38,660 nt of DNA from positions 1-38,660 of the IMG/VR virus record IMGVR_UViG_3300020202_000160; one strand, given 5' to 3'. Under the pieces are notes generated by a model. It made no database searches, was not told where the DNA came from, and was given only the letters and a program-made list of their open reading frames with translations. Position numbers and translations under genes: made by a program. This DNA comes from a virus. This document shows positions 21,507 through 38,016 of this stretch, in pieces. Position 1 is the first letter of the stretch; the number at the start of each line of letters is the position of its first letter.

Positions 21507-21851
21507 TCAGGTGAGGTCGCGGTCGAGGTTCTTCGCCGCGTTGCGGATGAACGCGCCGGCGGCGAGAACCAGCGGGACCACGGCCGCGACGAACGCGTCG
21601 GCGAAGCCGGCGTTCTTCAGCGCCGCGGTGATCGCGGGAGCGTCGCTCAGGTAGCCCACCGCGGCCGCGATGACCACCGACGCCAGGCCGGCGCCGAGCG
21701 CGCGCAGCGCCTTCCACAGCGTGATCCGAACGTCGTAGTAGCCCCTGCCGTCGTAGTACCCCATGCGCTTCGTCTCCTTCTCGAGCGCGTCGTCCGCGCG
21801 CTTCAACCGCCACCCGAGCCGAGCGAGCCCGGCCATCCTGCGAAGGCCCAT
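21507..21851 (-). CDS. Holin-like membrane protein
   Basis: This 114-residue protein has a basic N-terminus and two membrane segments (about residues 49-68 and 85-104), ending in a charged tail (NAAKNLDRDLT). Size and topology fit a class II-type holin, and the endolysin gene lies 3.5 kb upstream in the same operon. The ATG at 21851 forms a TGATG overlap; a shorter start at 'MGYYDGRGYY' is possible. The holin name is inferred from topology and context. Confidence 0.6.
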   Translation of the reverse strand: MGLRRMAGLARLGWRLKRADDALEKETKRMGYYDGRGYYDVRITLWKALRALGAGLASVVIAAAVGYLSDAPAITAALKNAGFADAFVAAVVPLVLAAGAFIRNAAKNLDRDLT

Positions 21852-22147
21852 CAGCCCTGCACCGCGGCGCGGAGCGCGCCAACGCGCAGGGCACCCAGGC
21901 GGGCCTCGACCGCGTGACGCAGCTTCCGCAGCGTCCCCACCGGCACGCCCGCGGCGGCGGCCTCCATGAGCACAGCCGAGGCCTCCGCCGGGTCCTTCGC
22001 CGCGGTGATCCGCTCGCGGAACGAGGGCTTCATCCCCACGCCGGCCATCCGCATCGCGGCGCGCTGTTGACGTTTCGTCAGCTCGGAGAACTCCTGCGCG
22101 CGGCCCTGCTCGAGCAGCGCCTGGTGGAAGTCCTGCTCGGTGATCAC
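21851..22147 (-). CDS. Small helical protein of unknown function
   Basis: This 98-residue protein (ITEQDFHQALLEQGRAQEFSEL...) is Ala/Arg/Glu rich and all helix by composition, with no signal peptide or membrane segment. The GTG at 22147 overlaps the stop of the metzincin gene as GTGA, so it is probably translated by coupling. It lies between a lipoprotein protease and the holin candidate. I recognise no family. Confidence 0.6.
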   Translation of the reverse strand: MITEQDFHQALLEQGRAQEFSELTKRQQRAAMRMAGVGMKPSFRERITAAKDPAEASAVLMEAAAAGVPVGTLRKLRHAVEARLGALRVGALRAAVQG

Positions 22148-22875
22148 GGCAGTAGCTCCCGGCAGACCACCGGGCCCGGCGCGGCCGCGGGGCGCACGTC
22201 GGCGCCGGCGCGGCGGGTGCCGGGCGCCTGCGCCGCGATCCACCGCCACGCCGCGCGCTCTCGCGCGTCGAACGCGTCCTGCTCGAGCGGCGCGCCCCCC
22301 ATGACGTAGGGCCCAGGCGCCTGGGTGTGGCCGAGGCCCAGCACGTGCCCGAGCTCGTGGAGCAGGACCTTCGGCGTGATCCACACCGGGTGCGCGACGA
22401 CGACGCGGCCGCCGACCATCACGCCGCCGCGCTGTTCCTGGTACGCCACCGCCGCCGCGACCAGCTGGCCGTCGCGGTAGAGCGCTGGGTCGGCGCCATC
22501 GAGGACCAACCGCACGTCCGGCACGGACCGCAGTCCGCGCGCGAAACCGACGTCGCCGCCCGTCGCCGCGGTGGCCTGCGCGAGCACGTGGTCGACGAGC
22601 TGCTCGTCGAACTCGGGGCCGGCCTCGACGCTGAACGCGTGCTGCAGCTGCGGCCGCCAGATCACGCCGCGGTCGAAGAACGCGAGCTCGTCGACGAACG
22701 GATCCGGCGCCGTGGCCACGAGCGGGGGGCCCGCCGACGGCGCCGGCGAGGGCGCGGCCGGCGGCCGCGGCGCGGGCCGGCCGCCACCGCACGCGACGAG
22801 CACGGCGAGGAGGATGGTTGCAGCTGCCGGGATCGAACCGGCCTTGCGCAGGTTATGAGCCTGCCGGGACACCAT
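22144..22875 (-). CDS. Lipoprotein metzincin zinc protease
   Basis: This is a probable membrane-anchored metalloprotease (243 residues). The zinc site HELGHVLGLGH (residues 173-183) followed by a Met-turn (VMGG, Met192) defines a metzincin of the matrixin/M10 type. The N-terminus carries positively charged residues, a hydrophobic run and the lipobox LVAC (Cys29), then a Pro/Ala linker. The signal peptide is encoded inside the tRNA gene at 22815-22889: the only start codons that include it are ATG 22875 and GTG 22872, and the next GTG removes it. No strong ribosome site exists apart from the tRNA G-run. Targets are unknown. Confidence 0.8.
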   Translation of the reverse strand: MVSRQAHNLRKAGSIPAAATILLAVLVACGGGRPAPRPPAAPSPAPSAGPPLVATAPDPFVDELAFFDRGVIWRPQLQHAFSVEAGPEFDEQLVDHVLAQATAATGGDVGFARGLRSVPDVRLVLDGADPALYRDGQLVAAAVAYQEQRGGVMVGGRVVVAHPVWITPKVLLHELGHVLGLGHTQAPGPYVMGGAPLEQDAFDARERAAWRWIAAQAPGTRRAGADVRPAAAPGPVVCRELLP

Positions 22876-22889
22876 GCCCCCCAGCTGCG
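22815..22889 (-). tRNA. Initiator-like tRNA-Met (CAU)
   Basis: This 75-base cloverleaf has a 7-bp acceptor whose first pair is a C1/A72 mismatch, a short D-arm, a perfect 5-bp anticodon stem with loop CTCATAA, a perfect 5-bp T-stem with TTCGATC, and an encoded CCA. C1/A72 and a purine11-pyrimidine24 pair in the D-stem are hallmarks of bacterial initiator tRNA. The anticodon stem lacks the third G-C pair of initiators. U8, A14 and A21 are not at their usual identities, so it may be degenerate. It begins at the base after the stop of the upstream gene. Confidence 0.8.
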
Positions 22890-23645
22890 TCACCGCGCGA
22901 GCTCCAGCGCGCGCCCGAGGTCGGCCTGCACACCGACCCGCAGCACGTCCCGCGCGCCGTCCTCGCGCCCCACCGACAGCACCGCGTCGCCCACCAGGTG
23001 GGCCACGCCCGCGGTGGCGGGCACCGGGACCCGCCCGCGGACGAGGACCTGGCCGAGCCCGAAGGCCTCCGCGGCGAGCTCGTCGCGCCCGAACAGCACC
23101 GCCAGCTCGGCGCCCGACCGTGCCTCGGCCAGGCGCACGCCGCCGGCGTACCGGCGGATCAGCCGGTCCACCGGGCCCGGCTCGGCCGACAGCCTGGTAC
23201 CGAAGCCGGCCAGCGCGACCACCGCGGTGGTGATCTCCTGGTCGCCGCTCGCGAGCCGGCCGACGATGCGCCGCAGGCTCACGTCGACCGTGGCGCCCCG
23301 GAACGTCTGCGGGTCGGCCAGGTCGATCGACTCCCCGGGGAGGGTCGTGAGCCGCAGCTCGACGCGCACGCGCAGCGGGGCGCCCTCGCCGATCGCCAGC
23401 GGGCCGTCGACGTCGATCGTCGCTGCCGGCGTGAGCGCGGTGTCCTCGCCGGTCAGGGTGACCAGGCCGCCGGCCTGCGCCGCGATCGTGAGCGGGCCGG
23501 CATTCGGCGCCTCGGCCGCGGTCGCGTGGCCCGCACCGACGGCGAGGAGGGCCAGGAGGAGCACCCCATGAACGAAGCGCAGCGCGATCCGCTTCGGGGT
23601 GTTGCGCTGGTCGAGATGCTCCGCCCGGCCGAGATGGGTCTTCAT
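22890..23645 (-). CDS. Exported protein of unknown function
   Basis: This 251-residue protein has a probable Sec signal peptide: a long n-region, then 'FVHGVLLLALLAVGAGHATAA' with cleavage near residue 44. The mature part is rich in Val, Leu, Gly and Asp with several strand-like stretches, suggesting a beta fold, possibly periplasmic or virion-free. GGAGG stands seven bases before the ATG at 23645. Its stop lies directly against the tRNA 5' end. I recognise no family; the role in lysis or host interaction is unknown. Confidence 0.7.
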   Translation of the reverse strand: MKTHLGRAEHLDQRNTPKRIALRFVHGVLLLALLAVGAGHATAAEAPNAGPLTIAAQAGGLVTLTGEDTALTPAATIDVDGPLAIGEGAPLRVRVELRLTTLPGESIDLADPQTFRGATVDVSLRRIVGRLASGDQEITTAVVALAGFGTRLSAEPGPVDRLIRRYAGGVRLAEARSGAELAVLFGRDELAAEAFGLGQVLVRGRVPVPATAGVAHLVGDAVLSVGREDGARDVLRVGVQADLGRALELAR

Positions 23646-23683
23646 TCGCAGCCTCCAATGCGGCGCCATCGCGCCGACGTCCG

Positions 23684-24067
23684 TCAGCACAGCCGCACCA
23701 GGAATGCGAGGTGATCGACGCTCTTGATTCCGGTGCGGTCAGGGTGCGGGTCATGGGCCAACTCGCCGCGCGAGTAGATGACCGAGTGCGCGAGGCCGCG
23801 TGGCGACTGGCCCCACGCCATGTAATAGGTGCCGGGGATCCGGACCGTCGTCCCCGTGAGTTCGCCACCGGATCGCACGGTCACGTACGCCAGACCGAGG
23901 CCCCGTGCGGCGAGCCACTCGTCGACGATCTCCCAGTACCGAGAGTCGTGGCCGCCGTTCGGGATGTCGAAGACCTCCTCGATCGGCAGCTCCAGGAGCG
24001 ACGCGATGCACGCGGCGAGGCAGTTCCCGGCGCCGGCGCCGAATCGCGTCTGGTCGACCGGCTTCAC
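23684..24067 (-). CDS. C39-like cysteine peptidase-fold protein
   Basis: This 127-residue protein has the pattern 'DQTRFGAGAGNCLAACIASLLELP' (oxyanion Gln followed by Cys) and a later 'LAHSVIYSRGELAHDPHP' (His and Asp region). This resembles the papain-like/C39 proteins common in phages, whose substrates are unknown. The GTG at 24067 overlaps the upstream stop (GTGA) and follows GGGAGG by four to five bases. There is no signal peptide, so it acts in the cytoplasm unless co-released. Family match is moderate. Confidence 0.65.
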   Translation of the reverse strand: MKPVDQTRFGAGAGNCLAACIASLLELPIEEVFDIPNGGHDSRYWEIVDEWLAARGLGLAYVTVRSGGELTGTTVRIPGTYYMAWGQSPRGLAHSVIYSRGELAHDPHPDRTGIKSVDHLAFLVRLC

Positions 24068-24902: not shown

Positions 24903-25403
24903 CTACGGAACGACCGTCAGGTCGAACTGCTCGGACTGCACGCCCTTCGCGATGCAGCGGAAGCTGATGACGCCCGGTGTCTTACCCTTCACGTCGCGGT
25001 TGAAGGGGTTGCTCGGGATCGTGACGTCGGCGTGCTGGCTGCCGGCTACGACCCCGAAGAAGTCGGGGGTGGGCCCGTGCACCGAGGGTGCCGCCTCCAC
25101 GCCGGGCGCCACGAACGGGGTGCAGGTCAGCCACTTCGTGCAGCCCACGCGGACCGATCGGTCCTCGCCGCTCGAAGCCGTACCGCTCGGGCAGTGCTCG
25201 CCGAACTGCGTCACCTTGACCGAGGTCACGACGCCCTGGCCGGTGCCATCCTGCTCGCCGTCCTTCCCCCCGCTGCCGCCGCCCTGCGTCTGCGTGACCA
25301 CCTGGGTGGGCGCGCCGATGTCGATGTACGTGTCCCCGCAGGCGGCGACGAACAGCGCGACGAGACAGACCGCGAGCGCGGCCAGGAACGAACGAGGCTT
25401 CAT
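24903..25403 (-). CDS. Phage-encoded lipoprotein
   Basis: This 166-residue protein has a textbook lipoprotein signal: Lys/Arg at residues 2-4, a hydrophobic run to residue 21, and a VAAC lipobox (Cys22). A Gly/Ser/Asp/Glu linker follows, then a cysteine-containing beta-like domain (three further Cys). GGGAG lies eight bases before the ATG at 25403. It sits directly downstream of the endolysin. An o-spanin or superinfection-exclusion lipoprotein is possible; the sequence alone does not decide. Confidence 0.65.
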   Translation of the reverse strand: MKPRSFLAALAVCLVALFVAACGDTYIDIGAPTQVVTQTQGGGSGGKDGEQDGTGQGVVTSVKVTQFGEHCPSGTASSGEDRSVRVGCTKWLTCTPFVAPGVEAAPSVHGPTPDFFGVVAGSQHADVTIPSNPFNRDVKGKTPGVISFRCIAKGVQSEQFDLTVVP

Positions 25404-25416
25404 GAGCGAGCTCCCT

Positions 25417-25881
25417 TCAAGCGAGCAGGCGGCGGACGCCCAGGACGTTCGCCGCCGGGTAGGGGGCGACGCTGACCTGGTCGCCCTGGTTGCCGCCGAG
25501 CACGAGAACGCGATCGCCCTCGAGGCCGGCGAAGAAGCCGACGTGACCCGGCGCGTTCGTGACCTCCGGGCCCGGCTGCGCGCCGCCGCCGCGCTTCAGC
25601 ACGACGACGTCGAAGCCGGCGCGCGCCTCCTCGAGGGGCACGGGCACGCCGACCTTCAGCCACGAGCGCGCGGCCAGGCTCTTCGACCGCGGCAGCCGCA
25701 GCAGCCACGCCACGTAGTTGGCGAACGCCGAGCACCACGGCACGTCGTCGCCGCTCGGCCACGCCGAGTCGAGCCGGAGCATCGCGAGGACCTGCGGGTT
25801 CGACGCAGCGCCCTCGGCCTCCTCGAGGCCGATGAACCGCTGCGCCAGCTCGTAGGCGGTGAGCTCGACCCGCGGCGTCAC
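25417..25881 (-). CDS. Endolysin, TIGR02594-type NlpC/CHAP-like
   Basis: This 154-residue peptidoglycan hydrolase has the family pattern: 'DVPWCSAFANYVAWLL' (catalytic Cys50), 'AARSWL..GVPV', 'GFDVVVLKRG', then 'PGHVGFFAG' (catalytic His113) and 'VLVLGGNQGDQVSVA'. TIGR02594 proteins are about 130 residues, so this is near full length. I use GTG 25881 (GTGA overlap with the small Cys-rich gene, GGAGCC eight bases upstream). There is no signal peptide, so it needs the holin or another exit route. Its likely cut is in the peptide stem, inferred from the family. Confidence 0.8.
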   Translation of the reverse strand: MTPRVELTAYELAQRFIGLEEAEGAASNPQVLAMLRLDSAWPSGDDVPWCSAFANYVAWLLRLPRSKSLAARSWLKVGVPVPLEEARAGFDVVVLKRGGGAQPGPEVTNAPGHVGFFAGLEGDRVLVLGGNQGDQVSVAPYPAANVLGVRRLLA

Positions 25882-26012
25882 GAGCGCGGCTCCGGGTGGG
25901 CCTTGCAGCCGCCGGCCGGCGCGCACGCGGCGCACAGCGGGCCCAGGCAGGACCAGCACCAGGGGCCCGCGTTGAGCGGCACCGTGGCCTCGCAGCTGGC
26001 GCAGGCGTCCAT
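25878..26012 (-). CDS. Micro-protein with three CxxC pairs
   Basis: This 44-residue protein (MDACASCEATVPLNAGPWCW...) has Cys pairs CASC, CWSC and CAAC plus one more Cys, which fits a two-zinc ribbon. Its ATG overlaps the upstream stop (TGATG) and its stop overlaps the endolysin GTG (GTGA). The fit on both sides strongly supports a real gene despite its size. Function unknown. Confidence 0.7.
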   Translation of the reverse strand: MDACASCEATVPLNAGPWCWSCLGPLCAACAPAGGCKAHPEPRS

Positions 26013-27855: not shown

Positions 27856-28506
27856 TCAGTGCGCCTTCGCCGCGACGTCCTCGGGATCCGCCGGCCGCGG
27901 GCCCGGCTTACCGCGCCACGGCTTACCGGTCGCGGCCTGCTGCGCCGGCTGCTTCTCGTCGCGGAACAGCTCGGCCTGTTTCGTGCCGGTCTGCAGCGCG
28001 CGATAGAACGTCTCGAGCTCCCGCTTGTACGTCCCGTGGCGCGCGACGATCTCGTGGAACTCCTCGATCTCGTGCTTCCGGGTGCGCCACAGCTTCCGGC
28101 CGCGCTCGTCCTCGAGCTGCTCGCCGGTCCGCTGGTCGAGCTTCGCCTGGGCGTGGCACAGCTCGTGGTCGAGCAGGGCGCGGCGGTGCTCCTGCGGGAC
28201 GCCGGCGTTGTGCCACCACTCGGTGTCCAGCATGACCACGAAGTCCCACGCCGACTCCCCGCGCGCGAGCTCGCGGTCGAGGTCCGAGGCCTTCTTGCAC
28301 TGGCCGAGCTTGCGCACGCCGTCGGCGTCCGGCTTCCAGCCGAGGTGCCACGCGAGCGCGATCCGCGCCGGCTTCAGGTGCTCGTGGTGCTTGTCCACGA
28401 GCTCGCGCAGCAGCGCGTACATGACCCTTCCCTCGGCGTCGTCCTGCCGCACGAGCGTGAAGTTGACCTTCTTCCCGAGTTTCTGTTTCCGTCCCCGTCT
28501 CGCCAT
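27856..28506 (-). CDS. Putative phage metallopeptidase (PF18894 type)
   Basis: This 216-residue protein carries the pattern of phage metallopeptidases: 'HLKPARIALAWHLGWKPDADGVRKLGQCKKASDLDREL' with the zinc motif 'DHELCHA' (His114, Glu115, His118) and a charged C-terminal tail. GGAGG lies six bases before ATG 28506. Substrates of this family are unknown; it may clear host proteins or process phage ones. It follows the gap that holds the parS-like element. Confidence 0.8.
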   Translation of the reverse strand: MARRGRKQKLGKKVNFTLVRQDDAEGRVMYALLRELVDKHHEHLKPARIALAWHLGWKPDADGVRKLGQCKKASDLDRELARGESAWDFVVMLDTEWWHNAGVPQEHRRALLDHELCHAQAKLDQRTGEQLEDERGRKLWRTRKHEIEEFHEIVARHGTYKRELETFYRALQTGTKQAELFRDEKQPAQQAATGKPWRGKPGPRPADPEDVAAKAH

Positions 28507-28557: not shown

Positions 28558-29400
28558 TCACAGCGGCGGCCGGTAGCCGTCGGGCATGACACCGTCGCGG
28601 ACCTCGCGGAGCAGGAGGTCGACGGGCACGCCGGCGGACAGGCGCCGGTACCAGGACTCGCGGTGGTGAACCTGCGGCGTCTCGCCCTGCTGCTGGGCCT
28701 CGTCCACCACGCGCTGCAGGTCGGCCAGCAGCTGCAGCGAGAACCGTCGCCCGCACCCTCCGCGGTTCGTCCCGCAGAACCGGTGGTCGCCCTCCTGGCC
28801 GACGAACAGTGCTTGGCGCAGGCACACCGGGCAGGCGCTCGGCCGTCCTCCCGGCCGTGCCCGGTCGTCGTCGTCGTCCGCCGCTCCCGTGGTTCCCTCT
28901 GGGTGGACGACGACTAGAGTCTCTTGTTCAACTAACGGCGACGGCGACGGTGACGGTGACGGTGACGGTGACGGTGACGGAGGCGCGCACTTAGCGGCCG
29001 GTAACCGCTCGCTTACCGCGTCGCCCGGCGAGCCGCCGGCGCGTCGCTGGTTGACGAGCGCGGCGCCCTCCCGCTGGCGCTCCCGGCGAGCCACCGCCCG
29101 CTGGAACTCGTAGGTCAGGCGCTTGTTACGGCGACGGCCGTCCTCCCAGACCGGGAACCTGAGGAGGACCTCGTCGCGGACGCGCCGCCACTCCTTGCCG
29201 GTCAGCCCCGCCAGCGCTGCAAGTTCGTCGTCGTCATCAGGCAGCGACGCACCATCGAGCCACGCCGCGATCAGCAGCTCGAGGAACGCGAGGCGGCCGA
29301 GCTTCGATAGGACGGACCGCGACTTCGACGCCCGGTAGTCGCGGGGGTACAGGGGCATCATGGCGAGGCCGTCGTCGGCGTCGTGCTGGCGGCGCTTCAT
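28558..29400 (-). CDS. DUF1376 (YdaU-like) protein with zinc ribbon
   Basis: This 280-residue protein has an N-terminal DUF1376 domain ('MPLYPRDYRASKSRSVLS...FLELLIAAWLDGASLPDDDDELAALAGL'), found in phage replication modules. A (Ser-Pro)n linker is encoded by a hexamer repeat (28937-28978). A C-terminal part has four Cys (CPVC...CG..RGGCG) suiting a zinc ribbon. The ATG at 29400 overlaps the DndC-like stop as ATGA. The role is probably replication initiation or loading, inferred from the family's usual context. Confidence 0.8.
   Translation of the reverse strand: MKRRQHDADDGLAMMPLYPRDYRASKSRSVLSKLGRLAFLELLIAAWLDGASLPDDDDELAALAGLTGKEWRRVRDEVLLRFPVWEDGRRRNKRLTYEFQRAVARRERQREGAALVNQRRAGGSPGDAVSERLPAAKCAPPSPSPSPSPSPSPSPLVEQETLVVVHPEGTTGAADDDDDRARPGGRPSACPVCLRQALFVGQEGDHRFCGTNRGGCGRRFSLQLLADLQRVVDEAQQQGETPQVHHRESWYRRLSAGVPVDLLLREVRDGVMPDGYRPPL
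28937..28978. repeat. Hexamer tandem repeat
   Basis: Seven units of GGYGAC on the plus strand (two GGCGAC, then five GGTGAC). On the minus strand it encodes alternating Ser-Pro in the DUF1376 protein, so length changes keep the frame. Confidence 0.9.
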
Positions 29401-30602
29401 GGGGTCGTCGGCTCCTGGTGGAACAGAGCGCGCGTCGCGCCCGCCTCCTCGAACGGCTCGTCAGCGACCGGCTCGTCGCCGGTCCATTTCTGTGGCCAGG
29501 TGTTGAGGGCGATGAGCTCTCGGATCCGCTCTTCCTCCTCGGCGTTAAGGATGTCGACGCGCGGCCGGCCGAGCCGGTCGGCTTCGGCGTTGACCGAGGC
29601 CTGGATCGCGAGGACCTCGGCGAGCAGCCGCTGGCGGGCCTCGAGCGTGATCGGCCCCATGCGGTGCTGGTTCGTGACGAGGGTGCCGTCCTGCCGCGCC
29701 TCTCCTCCCGGCTTACGAAGGCGGTTCGACGGCAGACGCAGCTCCCGGAAGATCGGTCGGAGCCCGCGCAAGGGGGCGAGGTACGCCCACTGCGGCTTGC
29801 GCAGCACGGCGTCGAGCGCCGTGTCCTTGTTCGCGAGCGGGCAGCCGACGCACCCCGTGCGCGCGTTGATCTCCTCCGCCTCGTCGCCGCCGTACGCGTC
29901 CGCGAGGCTCGACGTCGACCAGCCGCCGTACTCCGGCGCCGGCGCGTGGAACTTCAGCCAGTCCCAGACGTGGCAGACGCGCCAGTGCAGGATGGGCGCG
30001 AGCGTGCTGCACAGGTCACCCGGCAACGCCTCCTGGTACCAGCCCTGGCCGCACTCGGCGCCGTTGCGGCTGCACGACATGACGATGCGCTGGTCGCGGA
30101 TCGCGCTCTCGCCTTGCCGGACGCCGGTGAGCATGAGCACCTTCCCGCCGGCGGCGGCCGCCACGCGGCGGAGCTCGGCGGTCATGGGGTCGACCTTGAT
30201 CTGGCGCGTGCACCAGCGGAAGGTGTTGTTGTTCGGCGGCGGGACGCCTCGCCCGAGGATGTAGACGAGGAACCGGCGGTCGAGCGGGGCCATCACGGTG
30301 CGGGCCTCGATGCCCCTCCGGCGCAGGCCCTCCATCGTGTCGGCCGCGCTCACCGCCAGCGGCAGGAGCTCCATCCTGGTGTCGGCGTAGAGGACGGTGA
30401 GCGAAGCCGGGCGCGGCACCTGGCCGGTCTCGATCAGGTGCACGAGGAGGGTGACCACCGTCGTGCTGTCCTTGCCGCCGGACCATGCGACCGCCCAGCG
30501 GGCGTGGCGCTCGCCGTACGCGTTGAGCGAGTCCACGGTCAGCGCGAGCGAGTCGGCCATCGTGAGCCGAGCGCCATCGAAGAGCGCGCGCTGGGCCCTC
30601 AC
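29397..30602 (-). CDS. DndC-like PP-loop ATPase (PAPS-reductase family)
   Basis: This 401-residue enzyme has the PP-loop SGGKDS (residues 41-46) of ATP-pyrophosphatases. Cysteines are placed as in DndC/PAPS-reductase-like proteins: Cys131 in 'FRWCTRQIKV', Cys177, Cys184 in 'NGAECGQGW' and the pair Cys251/Cys254 in 'GCVGCP', which could hold an iron-sulfur cluster. 'GVRQGESAIRDQR' is also typical of DndC. DndC acts in sulfur transfer to the DNA backbone. No dndA/B/D/E-like gene is nearby, so the product may differ. The GTG at 30602 overlaps the methyltransferase stop (GTGA), pairing both in one operon. Confidence 0.82.
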   Translation of the reverse strand: MRAQRALFDGARLTMADSLALTVDSLNAYGERHARWAVAWSGGKDSTTVVTLLVHLIETGQVPRPASLTVLYADTRMELLPLAVSAADTMEGLRRRGIEARTVMAPLDRRFLVYILGRGVPPPNNNTFRWCTRQIKVDPMTAELRRVAAAAGGKVLMLTGVRQGESAIRDQRIVMSCSRNGAECGQGWYQEALPGDLCSTLAPILHWRVCHVWDWLKFHAPAPEYGGWSTSSLADAYGGDEAEEINARTGCVGCPLANKDTALDAVLRKPQWAYLAPLRGLRPIFRELRLPSNRLRKPGGEARQDGTLVTNQHRMGPITLEARQRLLAEVLAIQASVNAEADRLGRPRVDILNAEEEERIRELIALNTWPQKWTGDEPVADEPFEEAGATRALFHQEPTTP

Positions 30603-31972
30603 GCCGCGACCTCCGCCGGCCTGCCTGGCGCGTTCGCGCGCACGACGGCCTCGGCTACCTCCGGGCAGACGCTGTTGCCGATCAGCCGTACCATCGCGCC
30701 CTTGTGCGGCAGCCCGCGGCGCGTGCGCGCCGCGCTCAGGTCATAGGCCTCGGCGAACCGGCCGAACTGCGCGCGCAGGAGCTCGTGCGGCTCGAGCATG
30801 CGCATGCCGATGTCGACGATCTGGTAATCGGTGCCCTCGACCGTGACGAGGCCGAGGCGGTGGCGCGCGGTGATCGTGCGTGCGGGGTCGCGGAGCGACT
30901 GCCCCTTCCCCGCCGATCCGTCCGACCCGTAGAACGCGGTGAGGAACGCGCGCACCTCGGCCACGTGCATGCCGCTCGCCGTGACCGTCGGCACCGGCTC
31001 GTCGACCGCCGCACCGTTGCAGTCGCCGCGGAGCTTGACCAGCGTCGCGGCCGCGAGGCTGTGGTGGTCGCGCGCGGTGATGGTGTGGATCGGCTGCGGC
31101 AGCTCGGCGCCGACGACGCCCCCGAAGTGCCGCGCGAGGAACGCGGCCACGAGCGCGTGCTTCTGCCCGTTGACCATCGTGCCGAGCGGCTTGTGCAGTC
31201 CCGGCACGCGGGCGGCCTGGCCCGGGCGCTCGCCGTAACCAGTCTGGATGAGCGTCGGCGCCACGAGGGCGTGCCCGCGCTGCGTCGCGGTGATCGTGGT
31301 GAGAGGCTCGTCTGCCGCCTCACCGCGGGCATCGCGCTTCCCGTGGTTGACCTTGACGATGCTCGGCGCGACGACCGCGTGGCCGTTGGCTGACGTGATC
31401 GTCCCGAGCGGATCCTCGATCGGGAACGCGTTAGTCGCGTGGCTCTGGTGGTGGTCGGTGCGGATGACGAACGGCGCCGGCGCCTCGAGCACGAACCGGC
31501 GAATGCCCTGCGCGATGCGCCAGAGCGTCTTCTCGGCGAGCGGCTTTCGCCGCTCGAAGATCGACGGGCACGGGAGGCTCCAGTCGACGAGCGGGCCCCA
31601 GCCCTGGAACTCCTGGACGTTCTCCAGGCAGATGACGCGCGGCCGCACCGCGGCCGCCCAACGGACCACGGCCCACGCGAGCGAGCGGATGTCCTGCCGG
31701 CGCGGCACGTCGCCCTTCGCCTGGGAGAAGTGCGTGCAGTCGGGGCTCGCCCACAGCAGGTCGACCGGGCGCCCACCGGTGGCCTCAACCGGGCGCACCT
31801 CCCAGATGTCGGCCTCGAGGTGCCGCGTCTCGGGATGGTTCGCGCGGTGTACGGCGATGGCGACGTCGTCGTGGTTGATCGCGATGTCGACCGGCCGGCC
31901 GAGGGCGGCCTCGATCCCGACCGAGGCGCCGCCGCCGCCGGCGAAGAGGTCCACGACCAAGCCGGCGGTCAC
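30599..31972 (-). CDS. C5-cytosine DNA methyltransferase with repeated recognition region
   Basis: This 457-residue enzyme shows motif I 'VVDLFAGGGGASVGIEAAL' (SAM binding), motif IV with catalytic Cys79 in 'SPDCTHFSQAKG', motif VI 'CLENVQEF' and motif X 'RLIGNSVCPEVAEAVV'. The Asp-Cys in place of Pro-Cys in motif IV is a known variant in phage enzymes. Between residues 185 and 377 about six units of the form P-x-x-T-[IV]-[TN]-x(3-4)-H-x-[LV]-[AV] repeat; this is the target-recognition region. The GTG at 31972 overlaps the small upstream gene. It would protect phage DNA from restriction. Confidence 0.93.
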   Translation of the reverse strand: MTAGLVVDLFAGGGGASVGIEAALGRPVDIAINHDDVAIAVHRANHPETRHLEADIWEVRPVEATGGRPVDLLWASPDCTHFSQAKGDVPRRQDIRSLAWAVVRWAAAVRPRVICLENVQEFQGWGPLVDWSLPCPSIFERRKPLAEKTLWRIAQGIRRFVLEAPAPFVIRTDHHQSHATNAFPIEDPLGTITSANGHAVVAPSIVKVNHGKRDARGEAADEPLTTITATQRGHALVAPTLIQTGYGERPGQAARVPGLHKPLGTMVNGQKHALVAAFLARHFGGVVGAELPQPIHTITARDHHSLAAATLVKLRGDCNGAAVDEPVPTVTASGMHVAEVRAFLTAFYGSDGSAGKGQSLRDPARTITARHRLGLVTVEGTDYQIVDIGMRMLEPHELLRAQFGRFAEAYDLSAARTRRGLPHKGAMVRLIGNSVCPEVAEAVVRANAPGRPAEVAA

Positions 31973-36275: not shown

Positions 36276-36537
36276 CCTGCACCTCCTGGTGCGGGCGGCG
36301 CGCGCGGCGGCGCGCGCGGCGCCGCGCGTCGTAGGCCCGAAGGGTCGCGTCGTGGACGCACAGGTGGCGGCCTCCGTACGCGACGAACGAGCGGGCCACG
36401 TGCCCCGGCCGGTTGAAGCAGTCGAGGCAGAGGCCGAAGGCGCGGTCGGGCCCGATCGGGATCTCGCGCACGCCGAGGCCTGGGATCGCCTCCGGGAAGG
36501 GCGTGGTCCCGAGGCGCAGCTGCAGCCTCCCGCTCAT
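36268..36537 (-). CDS. Small Cys-containing protein of unknown function
   Basis: This 89-residue protein has a CxxC (CLDC) and histidines (VAYGGRHLCVHD) that may bind zinc, and an Arg-rich C-terminus (RRRARRRARR). The ATG at 36537 overlaps the radical-SAM gene stop. It is probably nucleic-acid-associated by charge, but no family was found. Confidence 0.55.
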   Translation of the reverse strand: MSGRLQLRLGTTPFPEAIPGLGVREIPIGPDRAFGLCLDCFNRPGHVARSFVAYGGRHLCVHDATLRAYDARRRARRRARRPHQEVQGA

Positions 36538-37646
36538 CGCGGCCACTCCCGGACGCGGAGGTCCTCGGGCCACTCGGAGGGGTCGCCGCCCTTCCTGCTC
36601 GCGAGCCGCAGCTGCGTCTCGGTGATCCGCGCGGTGATGACGCCGCGCCGACCGTGGCGCATCGGCGGGTCGAACTCCTCGCGCACGGAGCCGAGCAGCG
36701 GGCGGGCCCCGAGCTGCTTGCAGAAGACCGGCACGCCGGCCGCGCGACACGCGGCGATGGTCGAGCGCGCCCACTCGACCATGAACGGCCGCGCGCCGGG
36801 GCCGGACTCGCCCCCGATCACGAGCCAGTCCACCCGAGGGCCGAACCCCGGGGGGCAGTCCGGGACGTCCTCGGACCACGCAAGGCCGCACCGCACGCAG
36901 TCGCCGTCCTCGTCCGGTCCACCGATGTAGCGTCCAAAGTCAACCGGCCCGAGCGCCGGCTCGTAGCTCACCCACCGAACCGCGGCCGGCGTCCGCAGCA
37001 GGAGCGGGATCCGCTCGTCGGCGGTCGCTTGGTCCTCGACGGAGACACCGAGCCACACGTTCGGCAAGGGCCATGGCCAGCCCGCACCGTCCGCTCCGTC
37101 GAGGCGGTCGAGGCGGCCCACCCTCGCGTCCGGCCTCGCCGCTCGCATTGCTTGCTGCGCCATCGCGACGCAGAGGAAGGCGAGCGACGCAAGGTCCTGC
37201 GGCGCTCTCCGCCGCAGCCAGTCGAACCACGCGCGAGCTCGGCCCGGCCGCTTCGTGAGGATCTGGAACGTGTGCTGCGGCGCCAGCGCCATCGCGCCGA
37301 ACACCGCGGCGATCGCCTCGTCAGCGAGGGCCTCGTGGAAGAGGTCGGACATGCTGTTGACGAACACCTGGCGCGGCTTCCGCCAGCGCAGCGGCTCGTC
37401 CAGCTTCGACGGCACCAGCTCCACGCGGCCCGTCCAGCGCCATGTCCCGTTGGTGCGCGCGACGCCAGTGCCACCGTGGTAGTCACCGGCGAGCCCGCGC
37501 GCGAAGCCCTCGAACTTCTGGCCCGCGCCGCTGAACCGCCCGGCGATCCGTTCGGCGTAGCAGTGCCGGCAGCCCTCCGACACGCGCGAACAGCCGCGCA
37601 CCGGGTTCCACGTCACGTCGGTCCATTCGATCGACGTGGCCGTCAT
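36534..37646 (-). CDS. Gp37/Gp68 family radical-SAM-like protein
   Basis: This 370-residue protein belongs to the phage Gp37/Gp68 (DUF5131) family: 'TDVTWNPVRGCSRVSEGCRHCYAERIAGRF' carries three Cys (19, 26, 29; C-x6-C-x2-C) expected to hold a [4Fe-4S] cluster. 'VFVNSMSDLFHE', 'HTFQILTKRP' and 'VDWLVIGGESG' further match the family. The substrate is not known; nucleotide or tRNA modification has been suggested for related enzymes. GGGGG lies eight bases before the ATG at 37646, which overlaps the small membrane gene. Confidence 0.85.
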   Translation of the reverse strand: MTATSIEWTDVTWNPVRGCSRVSEGCRHCYAERIAGRFSGAGQKFEGFARGLAGDYHGGTGVARTNGTWRWTGRVELVPSKLDEPLRWRKPRQVFVNSMSDLFHEALADEAIAAVFGAMALAPQHTFQILTKRPGRARAWFDWLRRRAPQDLASLAFLCVAMAQQAMRAARPDARVGRLDRLDGADGAGWPWPLPNVWLGVSVEDQATADERIPLLLRTPAAVRWVSYEPALGPVDFGRYIGGPDEDGDCVRCGLAWSEDVPDCPPGFGPRVDWLVIGGESGPGARPFMVEWARSTIAACRAAGVPVFCKQLGARPLLGSVREEFDPPMRHGRRGVITARITETQLRLASRKGGDPSEWPEDLRVREWPR

Positions 37647-37804
37647 CGCCGGATCCCCCACCCGCGGCGGAGGTCGGCGATCCAGCCAGGCGACACGCGC
37701 TGGTCCCGCTCGATGCGGTGCAACACGAACGCGAACCAGAGGCAGCCCACGCCGACGGCCACGAGGGCGACGACGCCGGCGACGAGGAGGGCGACGGCGA
37801 TCAC
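37643..37804 (-). CDS. Small single-pass membrane protein
   Basis: This 53-residue protein has one hydrophobic segment (about residues 2-28, IAVALLVAGVVALVAVGVGC...) followed by a basic cytoplasm-facing or periplasmic tail with Arg and Trp. GTG 37804 and the stop both overlap neighbours by four bases. Such small proteins often block superinfection or are held in place only by coupling. Confidence 0.65.
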   Translation of the reverse strand: MIAVALLVAGVVALVAVGVGCLWFAFVLHRIERDQRVSPGWIADLRRGWGIRR

Positions 37805-38016
37805 GCGTGCCCCGCGCGGTGGTGGCAGACGGTGCCGTCAGGGTGGACCTCGATTGAAAGCAGCCGCTTGCGCTCCTCGAGGACGAGCTCCATCGCGCGA
37901 GCGATCCCGGCGAGGACACGCGGCGGCGCGCCGGCGAGCCGCCCGACTGTGAGCGCCTGGTCGAGCCGGCGGTAGACGTCCTCGTTCGCCCGGAGGGCGA
38001 GGTCGCTCGCGGTCAC
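37801..38016 (-). CDS. Small helical protein of unknown function
   Basis: This 71-residue protein is helical and Leu/Arg/Glu-rich, with a His/Cys-bearing end (TVCHHRAGHA). GTG 38016 overlaps the upstream gene and the stop overlaps the membrane gene (GTGA on both sides). No family recognised. Confidence 0.55.
   Translation of the reverse strand: MTASDLALRANEDVYRRLDQALTVGRLAGAPPRVLAGIARAMELVLEERKRLLSIEVHPDGTVCHHRAGHA

Follow-up and report, generated by a model that had tools for sequence, protein, structure and literature searches.

The window analysed here is the whole of an IMG/VR virus record (38,660 bases, 72% GC), whose minus strand carries most of the genes. Portal, protease, capsid and tape-measure genes are found in it together with a terminase, the nearest cultured relatives of which are actinophage enzymes at about 40% identity, while the tRNA described below instead resembles an initiator of the Planctomycetota type. 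The locus of interest, a tRNA and a metzincin-like protease gene, sits between a lysis-like group, to which a CHAP/tail-lysozyme-like protein (25417-25959) belongs, and the terminase genes. Three other regions of the minus strand deserve mention: 36534-37919 encodes a DUF5131 protein (strong Pfam match, PHROG of unknown function), 29397-31972 a PAPS-reductase-like protein and a DNA methyltransferase overlapping by 4 bases, perhaps a DNA-modification module, and 27856-28506 a protein with conflicting labels, transposase by PHROG and putative phage metallopeptidase (PF18894) by Pfam.

All features of the locus lie on the minus strand. Upstream, an ORF of 266 amino acids (22890..23690, GC3 0.95) abuts the first base of the tRNA with its stop codon: the TGA occupies 22892-22890 and the tRNA starts at the next base, as the initial annotation had observed. 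This ORF gave no family match and no relatives in the collections searched. Downstream, the frame plot points to an ORF of 98 amino acids (21851..22147), without a Pfam match, whose start overlaps the protease stop as GTGA (at 22147). GTGA overlaps tie the protease gene closely to its neighbours at both ends, and they also occur elsewhere in this phage.

The gene in between, a putative metzincin-like lipoprotein CDS, was delimited from codon-position GC, translation and start candidates, and extends over 22144..22893 if it is read from GTG 22893 (the alternative start being ATG 22875). GC by codon position in its frame is 0.83/0.55/0.93; this frame takes over just downstream of the tRNA, where no other frame fits, while inside the tRNA the values are 0.60/0.70/0.65, which is not coding-like. 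The translation contains the zinc-protease motif HELGHVLGLGH (22327..22359), with HExxHxxGxxH intact and a Met-turn-like VM following. Pfam metzincin matches stayed below their cutoffs (Reprolysin_5, 20.7 vs 27 bits; Peptidase_M10, 19.3 vs 24), and a single-sequence AlphaFold model of the protease, at pLDDT 40, was too poor for a fold search. No homologue was found in phage records, IMG/VR or GTDB genomes, the only matches being weak, motif-level ones in Planctomycetota.

The same frame reads MVSRQAHNLRKAGSIPAAATILLAVLVAC through the tRNA and continues into the HELGHVLGLGH ORF ending at 22144. A lipobox LVAC (22789..22800) is preceded by the h-region AAATILLAVLVA, and the signal segment as a whole, AAATILLAVLVAC, is followed by GGG and a Pro-rich linker. 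The signal peptidase II pattern (positive n-region, uncharged h-region, then [LVI][ASTVI][GAS]C) is satisfied as MVSRQAHNLRKAGSIP AAATILLAVLVA C. In codon-shuffled sequence lipoprotein-like starts appeared at 1 in 44,992 start codons, and within the window they are confined to this locus and to 24903-25403. The latter (minus strand) is a second, classical lipoprotein (MKPRSFLAALAVCLVALFVAACGD), which adjoins the CHAP/tail-lysozyme-like gene and is possibly part of a lysis cassette. Translation, codon-position composition and shuffle control argue that the protease frame is a real coding sequence and that its lipoprotein signal is real as well.

Concerning the tRNA, ARAGORN reported a single one in the window, a tRNA-Met(CAU) at 22815-22889 of 75 nt with encoded CCA and with the anticodon (22855..22857) in the loop CUCAUAA. 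On shuffled versions of the window the program gave 19 matches per 11.6 Mb in each of two shuffle schemes, and no Met was present among these 38 calls (600 shuffled windows, 23 Mb). Rfam called no tRNA at its gathering thresholds, and searching the record with RF00005 on its own gave nothing either; the best sub-threshold match at the locus was tRNA-Sec (RF01852), with 28.5 bits vs a gathering score of 47. An identity as tRNA-Sec was rejected on this score, on the anticodon, which is CAU and not UCA, and on the variable loop, which has 5 bases and is not a long arm. A 26-base core of the window tRNA, used as query, gathered matching tRNAs from 42 bacterial stretches, most of them of Planctomycetota or Gracilibacteria, as well as from some low-GC phages. 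We then built a covariance model from 21 bacterial initiator-type tRNAs of 75 nt whose D-loop has 7 bases and whose spacing agrees with that of the window tRNA, and this model matched the window only once, at the tRNA, scoring 66.6 bits (E 7.6e-17).

The 20 pairs of the stems are all standard (100% of stem cells), and the four-stem cloverleaf, the T-loop TTCGA, the anticodon loop and the CCA are all intact. Five pairs are changed on both sides in the window tRNA only (4:68 A-U, 6:66 C-G, 7:65 U-A, 11:23 G-C and 26:42 G-C, in alignment columns). The secondary structure has been kept by compensatory change, as is the case for a fold under selection, and the tRNA is real as a structure. Folding energy of the stretch is ordinary for its composition (z -1.1), and folding of the longer transcript was uninformative (z about 0). 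With the ARAGORN call and the covariance score, the tRNA-Met placed at these coordinates by the initial annotation stands on somewhat firmer ground than was claimed for it.

Marks of bacterial initiators include the CAU anticodon, a C1-A72 mismatch, A73, G2-C71, C3-G70 and R11:Y24, with the C1-A72 mismatch and A73 as main determinants of formylation (PMC9976931). The window tRNA possesses the C1-A72 mismatch and A73, and R11:Y24 is present as G11-C24 (alignment columns 11:23). Among the minor formylation determinants G2-C71 and C3-G70 are present, and the position of G4-C69 is occupied by A-U. In E. coli, initiators follow the rule of three G-C pairs at 29-31/39-41; here two of the three are G-C, and 29:41 is A-U, which is common to all the kin used. 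The anticodon, the C1-A72 mismatch, R11:Y24 and the encoded CCA point to an initiator-type tRNA by descent, and we make no claim from them about activity in translation.

Twenty positions of the window tRNA differ from all the kin, most of them in stems, in the variable loop or otherwise tolerable. At four positions invariant in the 21 kin, however, the core itself is altered: U8 is replaced by G, A14 by C, A21 by G and C48 by G, with the loss of near-universal tertiary contacts, and G15 has in addition become A, which finds no pyrimidine partner at 48 (A15:G48). The tertiary core formed by U8:A14, R15:Y48 and A21 is not present. Of 138 tRNAs in the fetched loci, 135 have U8 and 127 have A14; just one other tRNA lacks both. 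Because these near-invariant positions (U8, A14, A21, Y48) are changed, activity as a translating tRNA appears doubtful.

From this it is possible to hypothesize a retired tRNA: an initiator-type molecule which lost its tertiary core and no longer works in translation, whose fold is either kept or only recently free of selection, and whose bases have become the 5' end of the protease gene, where they may act as a structure for mRNA processing or translation control. The replacement of near-universal core bases by G8, C14, A15, G21 and G48, all outside the stems, is in agreement with this explanation. In isolation the minimum-energy fold lengthens the D-arm by C14-G21 and A15-U20; the D-arm of tRNA-Sec, the best Rfam match, is also longer. 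A relic which is purely coding, however, should lose pairs, and here none of the 20 stem pairs has been lost, several having changed on both sides, and the CCA and both the anticodon loop and the T-loop are intact. We consider retirement a serious possibility but a minority one.

It is also necessary to establish where the protease would start. The initial annotation had taken the ATG in the tRNA D-loop (22873..22875) as the start of the gene. This ATG does lie there, in a position where the kin have GTG or ATG, and it gives a tidier signal, of 29 residues, but its G-run is too near for a normal Shine-Dalgarno sequence; GTG 22872, within the tRNA, yields the same signal. A second candidate, GTG 22893 (22891..22893), overlaps the upstream TGA as GTGA, a junction resembling the other end of the gene, and is preceded at 8 nt by a Shine-Dalgarno-like GGAG (22902..22905). 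Shine-Dalgarno energies of GTG 22893 and ATG 22875 are -5.6 and -4.3 kcal/mol, both unremarkable compared with random positions, and so favour neither. GTG 22893 is as good a start candidate as the ATG and may be the best upstream one, and since it combines the overlap with the GGAG, the CDS may contain the tRNA in full, as codons 2 to 27, its length of 75 being a multiple of three. Beyond the tRNA, the in-frame starts GTG 22803 and GTG 22719 have no usable signal; an anchored product would thus have to begin in the tRNA or before it.

How much of the signal is specific to this locus was evaluated on the kin. In the same frame they read MVSRQAHNL or VVSRQAHNL, without a known downstream protein. 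Since the ATG and MVSRQAHNL are the intrinsic translation of the tRNA family, the D-loop ATG, the open frame and this peptide are best taken as by-products of the family and not as evidence of design, and independent evidence for a signal is limited to its last part, ILLAVLVAC. The earlier claim that the tRNA encodes the n-region and part of the hydrophobic core holds in that the signal needs tRNA codons, while the n-terminal peptide is nothing particular to this gene. With ILLAVLVAC in place downstream, a signal-like start results in 35% of random tRNA variants that preserve the structure, so that there is no clear sign of a tRNA tuned to the protein; about 1% equal the signal of the window on the strictest criteria, which were chosen after the fact. 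With about 1 to 35% of random variants doing as well, tuning of the tRNA bases towards the signal is not significant. The overlap may be the recruitment of a ready-made open frame.

These observations bear on the opposite explanation, that the tRNA works and the protease reading across it is spurious, either because the true start of the gene lies downstream and gives no signal or because the gene lost its start when the tRNA landed and is now decaying. The composition within the tRNA, the fact that ATG and MVSRQAHNL come free with the family, and the moderate Shine-Dalgarno energy of GTG 22719 would all fit. On the other hand, it would leave the lipobox, hydrophobic stretch and Pro-rich linker that directly follow the tRNA without a purpose, neither the active-site motif nor the coding bias has been lost, and GTGA and GGAG mark a start ahead of the tRNA; we find this explanation improbable. 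A chance tRNA-like fold in GC-rich coding DNA, to which the silence of the Rfam tRNA model at its gathering threshold and the ordinary folding energy could be credited, is refuted by the initiator-model match, by identity with the nearest kin at 52 of 75 bases and by the lack of false Met calls in shuffles, and is scarcely credible.

We also searched for the arrangement outside this phage. About 80 loci of terminase relatives (784 kb) contained no ARAGORN tRNA, no credible initiator tRNA and no protease; one of them (L122:2422-2483, minus strand) gave a weak initiator-model match of 20.7 bits (E 0.016), probably by chance. A second contig (L006) shows no difference from the window between terminase and capsid, but does not extend to the tRNA. 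No homologue keeping the tRNA and protease together was found in the collections searched.

The most likely interpretation is a real in-frame overlap of tRNA and CDS with mutually exclusive products; the switch between them is something we infer. We estimate at about one half the probability that an initiator-type tRNA in a phage operon also provides, in frame, the opening codons of a metzincin-like lipoprotein gene, the two products excluding each other on each transcript. The altered core, the lack of a homologue with this arrangement and the lack of tuning were counted against it. Translation of the protease, from GTG 22893 or ATG 22875, would be coupled to termination of the upstream ORF. 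Cleavage by RNase P at 22889/22890 would end the upstream message exactly with its stop codon and free the tRNA, leaving a protease message without start or signal, while the protease could be translated in full only from an uncut transcript, and a transcript used for the lipoprotein could not give the tRNA. The proportion in which the two products arise would depend on the balance of folding and processing against ribosome occupancy. That tRNA processing and a full-length protease message exclude each other, as proposed initially, follows from the coordinates: the tRNA shares its bases with the start and signal of the protease, so one transcript cannot give both, and each RNA copy probably yields tRNA or protein, the exclusion being per molecule and not per cell. 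More modest than a regulated switch is the view that the overlap is merely tolerated, many transcripts being made. The stronger version, in which a working initiator tRNA and a lipoprotein start share one RNA, tRNA processing switching the protease off and protease initiation destroying the tRNA, we regard as rather unlikely; if true, the phage couples its supply of initiator to an enzyme anchored in the envelope. Overall the initial interpretation is partly supported, as tRNA, coding frame and shared signal DNA are borne out, and the mature tRNA and the lipoprotein are predicted products.

The closest known counterparts are bacterial tRNA-fMet genes of 75 nt with a 7-base D-loop (Planctomycetota, Gracilibacteria, a Phascolarctobacterium), which share with the window tRNA length, stem layout, the CTCATAA loop, the CAGG...CCTG stem, R11:Y24, a C1 mismatched with 72, A73 and encoded CCA. 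The window tRNA is identical to them at 47-52 of 75 bases and differs in the changed U8, A14, G15, A21 and C48 and in lying inside a CDS. Initiator-type tRNAs of the same family, with D-loop ATGG and the open reading MVSRQAHNL, are found on low-GC phage contigs of IMG/VR (L001-L005, L014, L017, L019); these phages are AT-rich, and L014, L015, L017 and L019 have no conserved downstream gene in the tRNA frame. Phage-encoded tRNAs in general, including those of tRNA-dependent lysogeny (PMC10865867), are comparable in that a full tRNA gene is carried by a phage, but overlap of tRNA and CDS is no part of that system. A role as integration site in such lysogeny, for which the phage should have a tyrosine integrase and attP, was rejected, no integrase being present among the window proteins scanned on a contig that may be incomplete. 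Same-strand ATGA/GTGA gene overlaps with coupled translation resemble this locus in the GTGA junctions that flank the protease gene, but here the second overlapping product is an RNA and not a protein. Searches of open-access papers turned up no tRNA nested in a phage CDS, which is no proof of its absence.

tRNA genes are usually assumed to be separate from coding bases, and annotators tend towards one or the other. A tRNA nested in frame on the sense strand, with its fold preserved, would demonstrate that genome compaction in phages can compel a tRNA and a signal peptide to use one set of bases, and the locus would be a clear case in which to test RNA fates that exclude each other. Rfam thresholds may be leaving many GC-rich phage tRNAs with altered cores unnoticed, the minus strand of 22811-22893 being an example, and the start codon and open frame that come ready-made in initiator tRNAs can be recruited by downstream genes.
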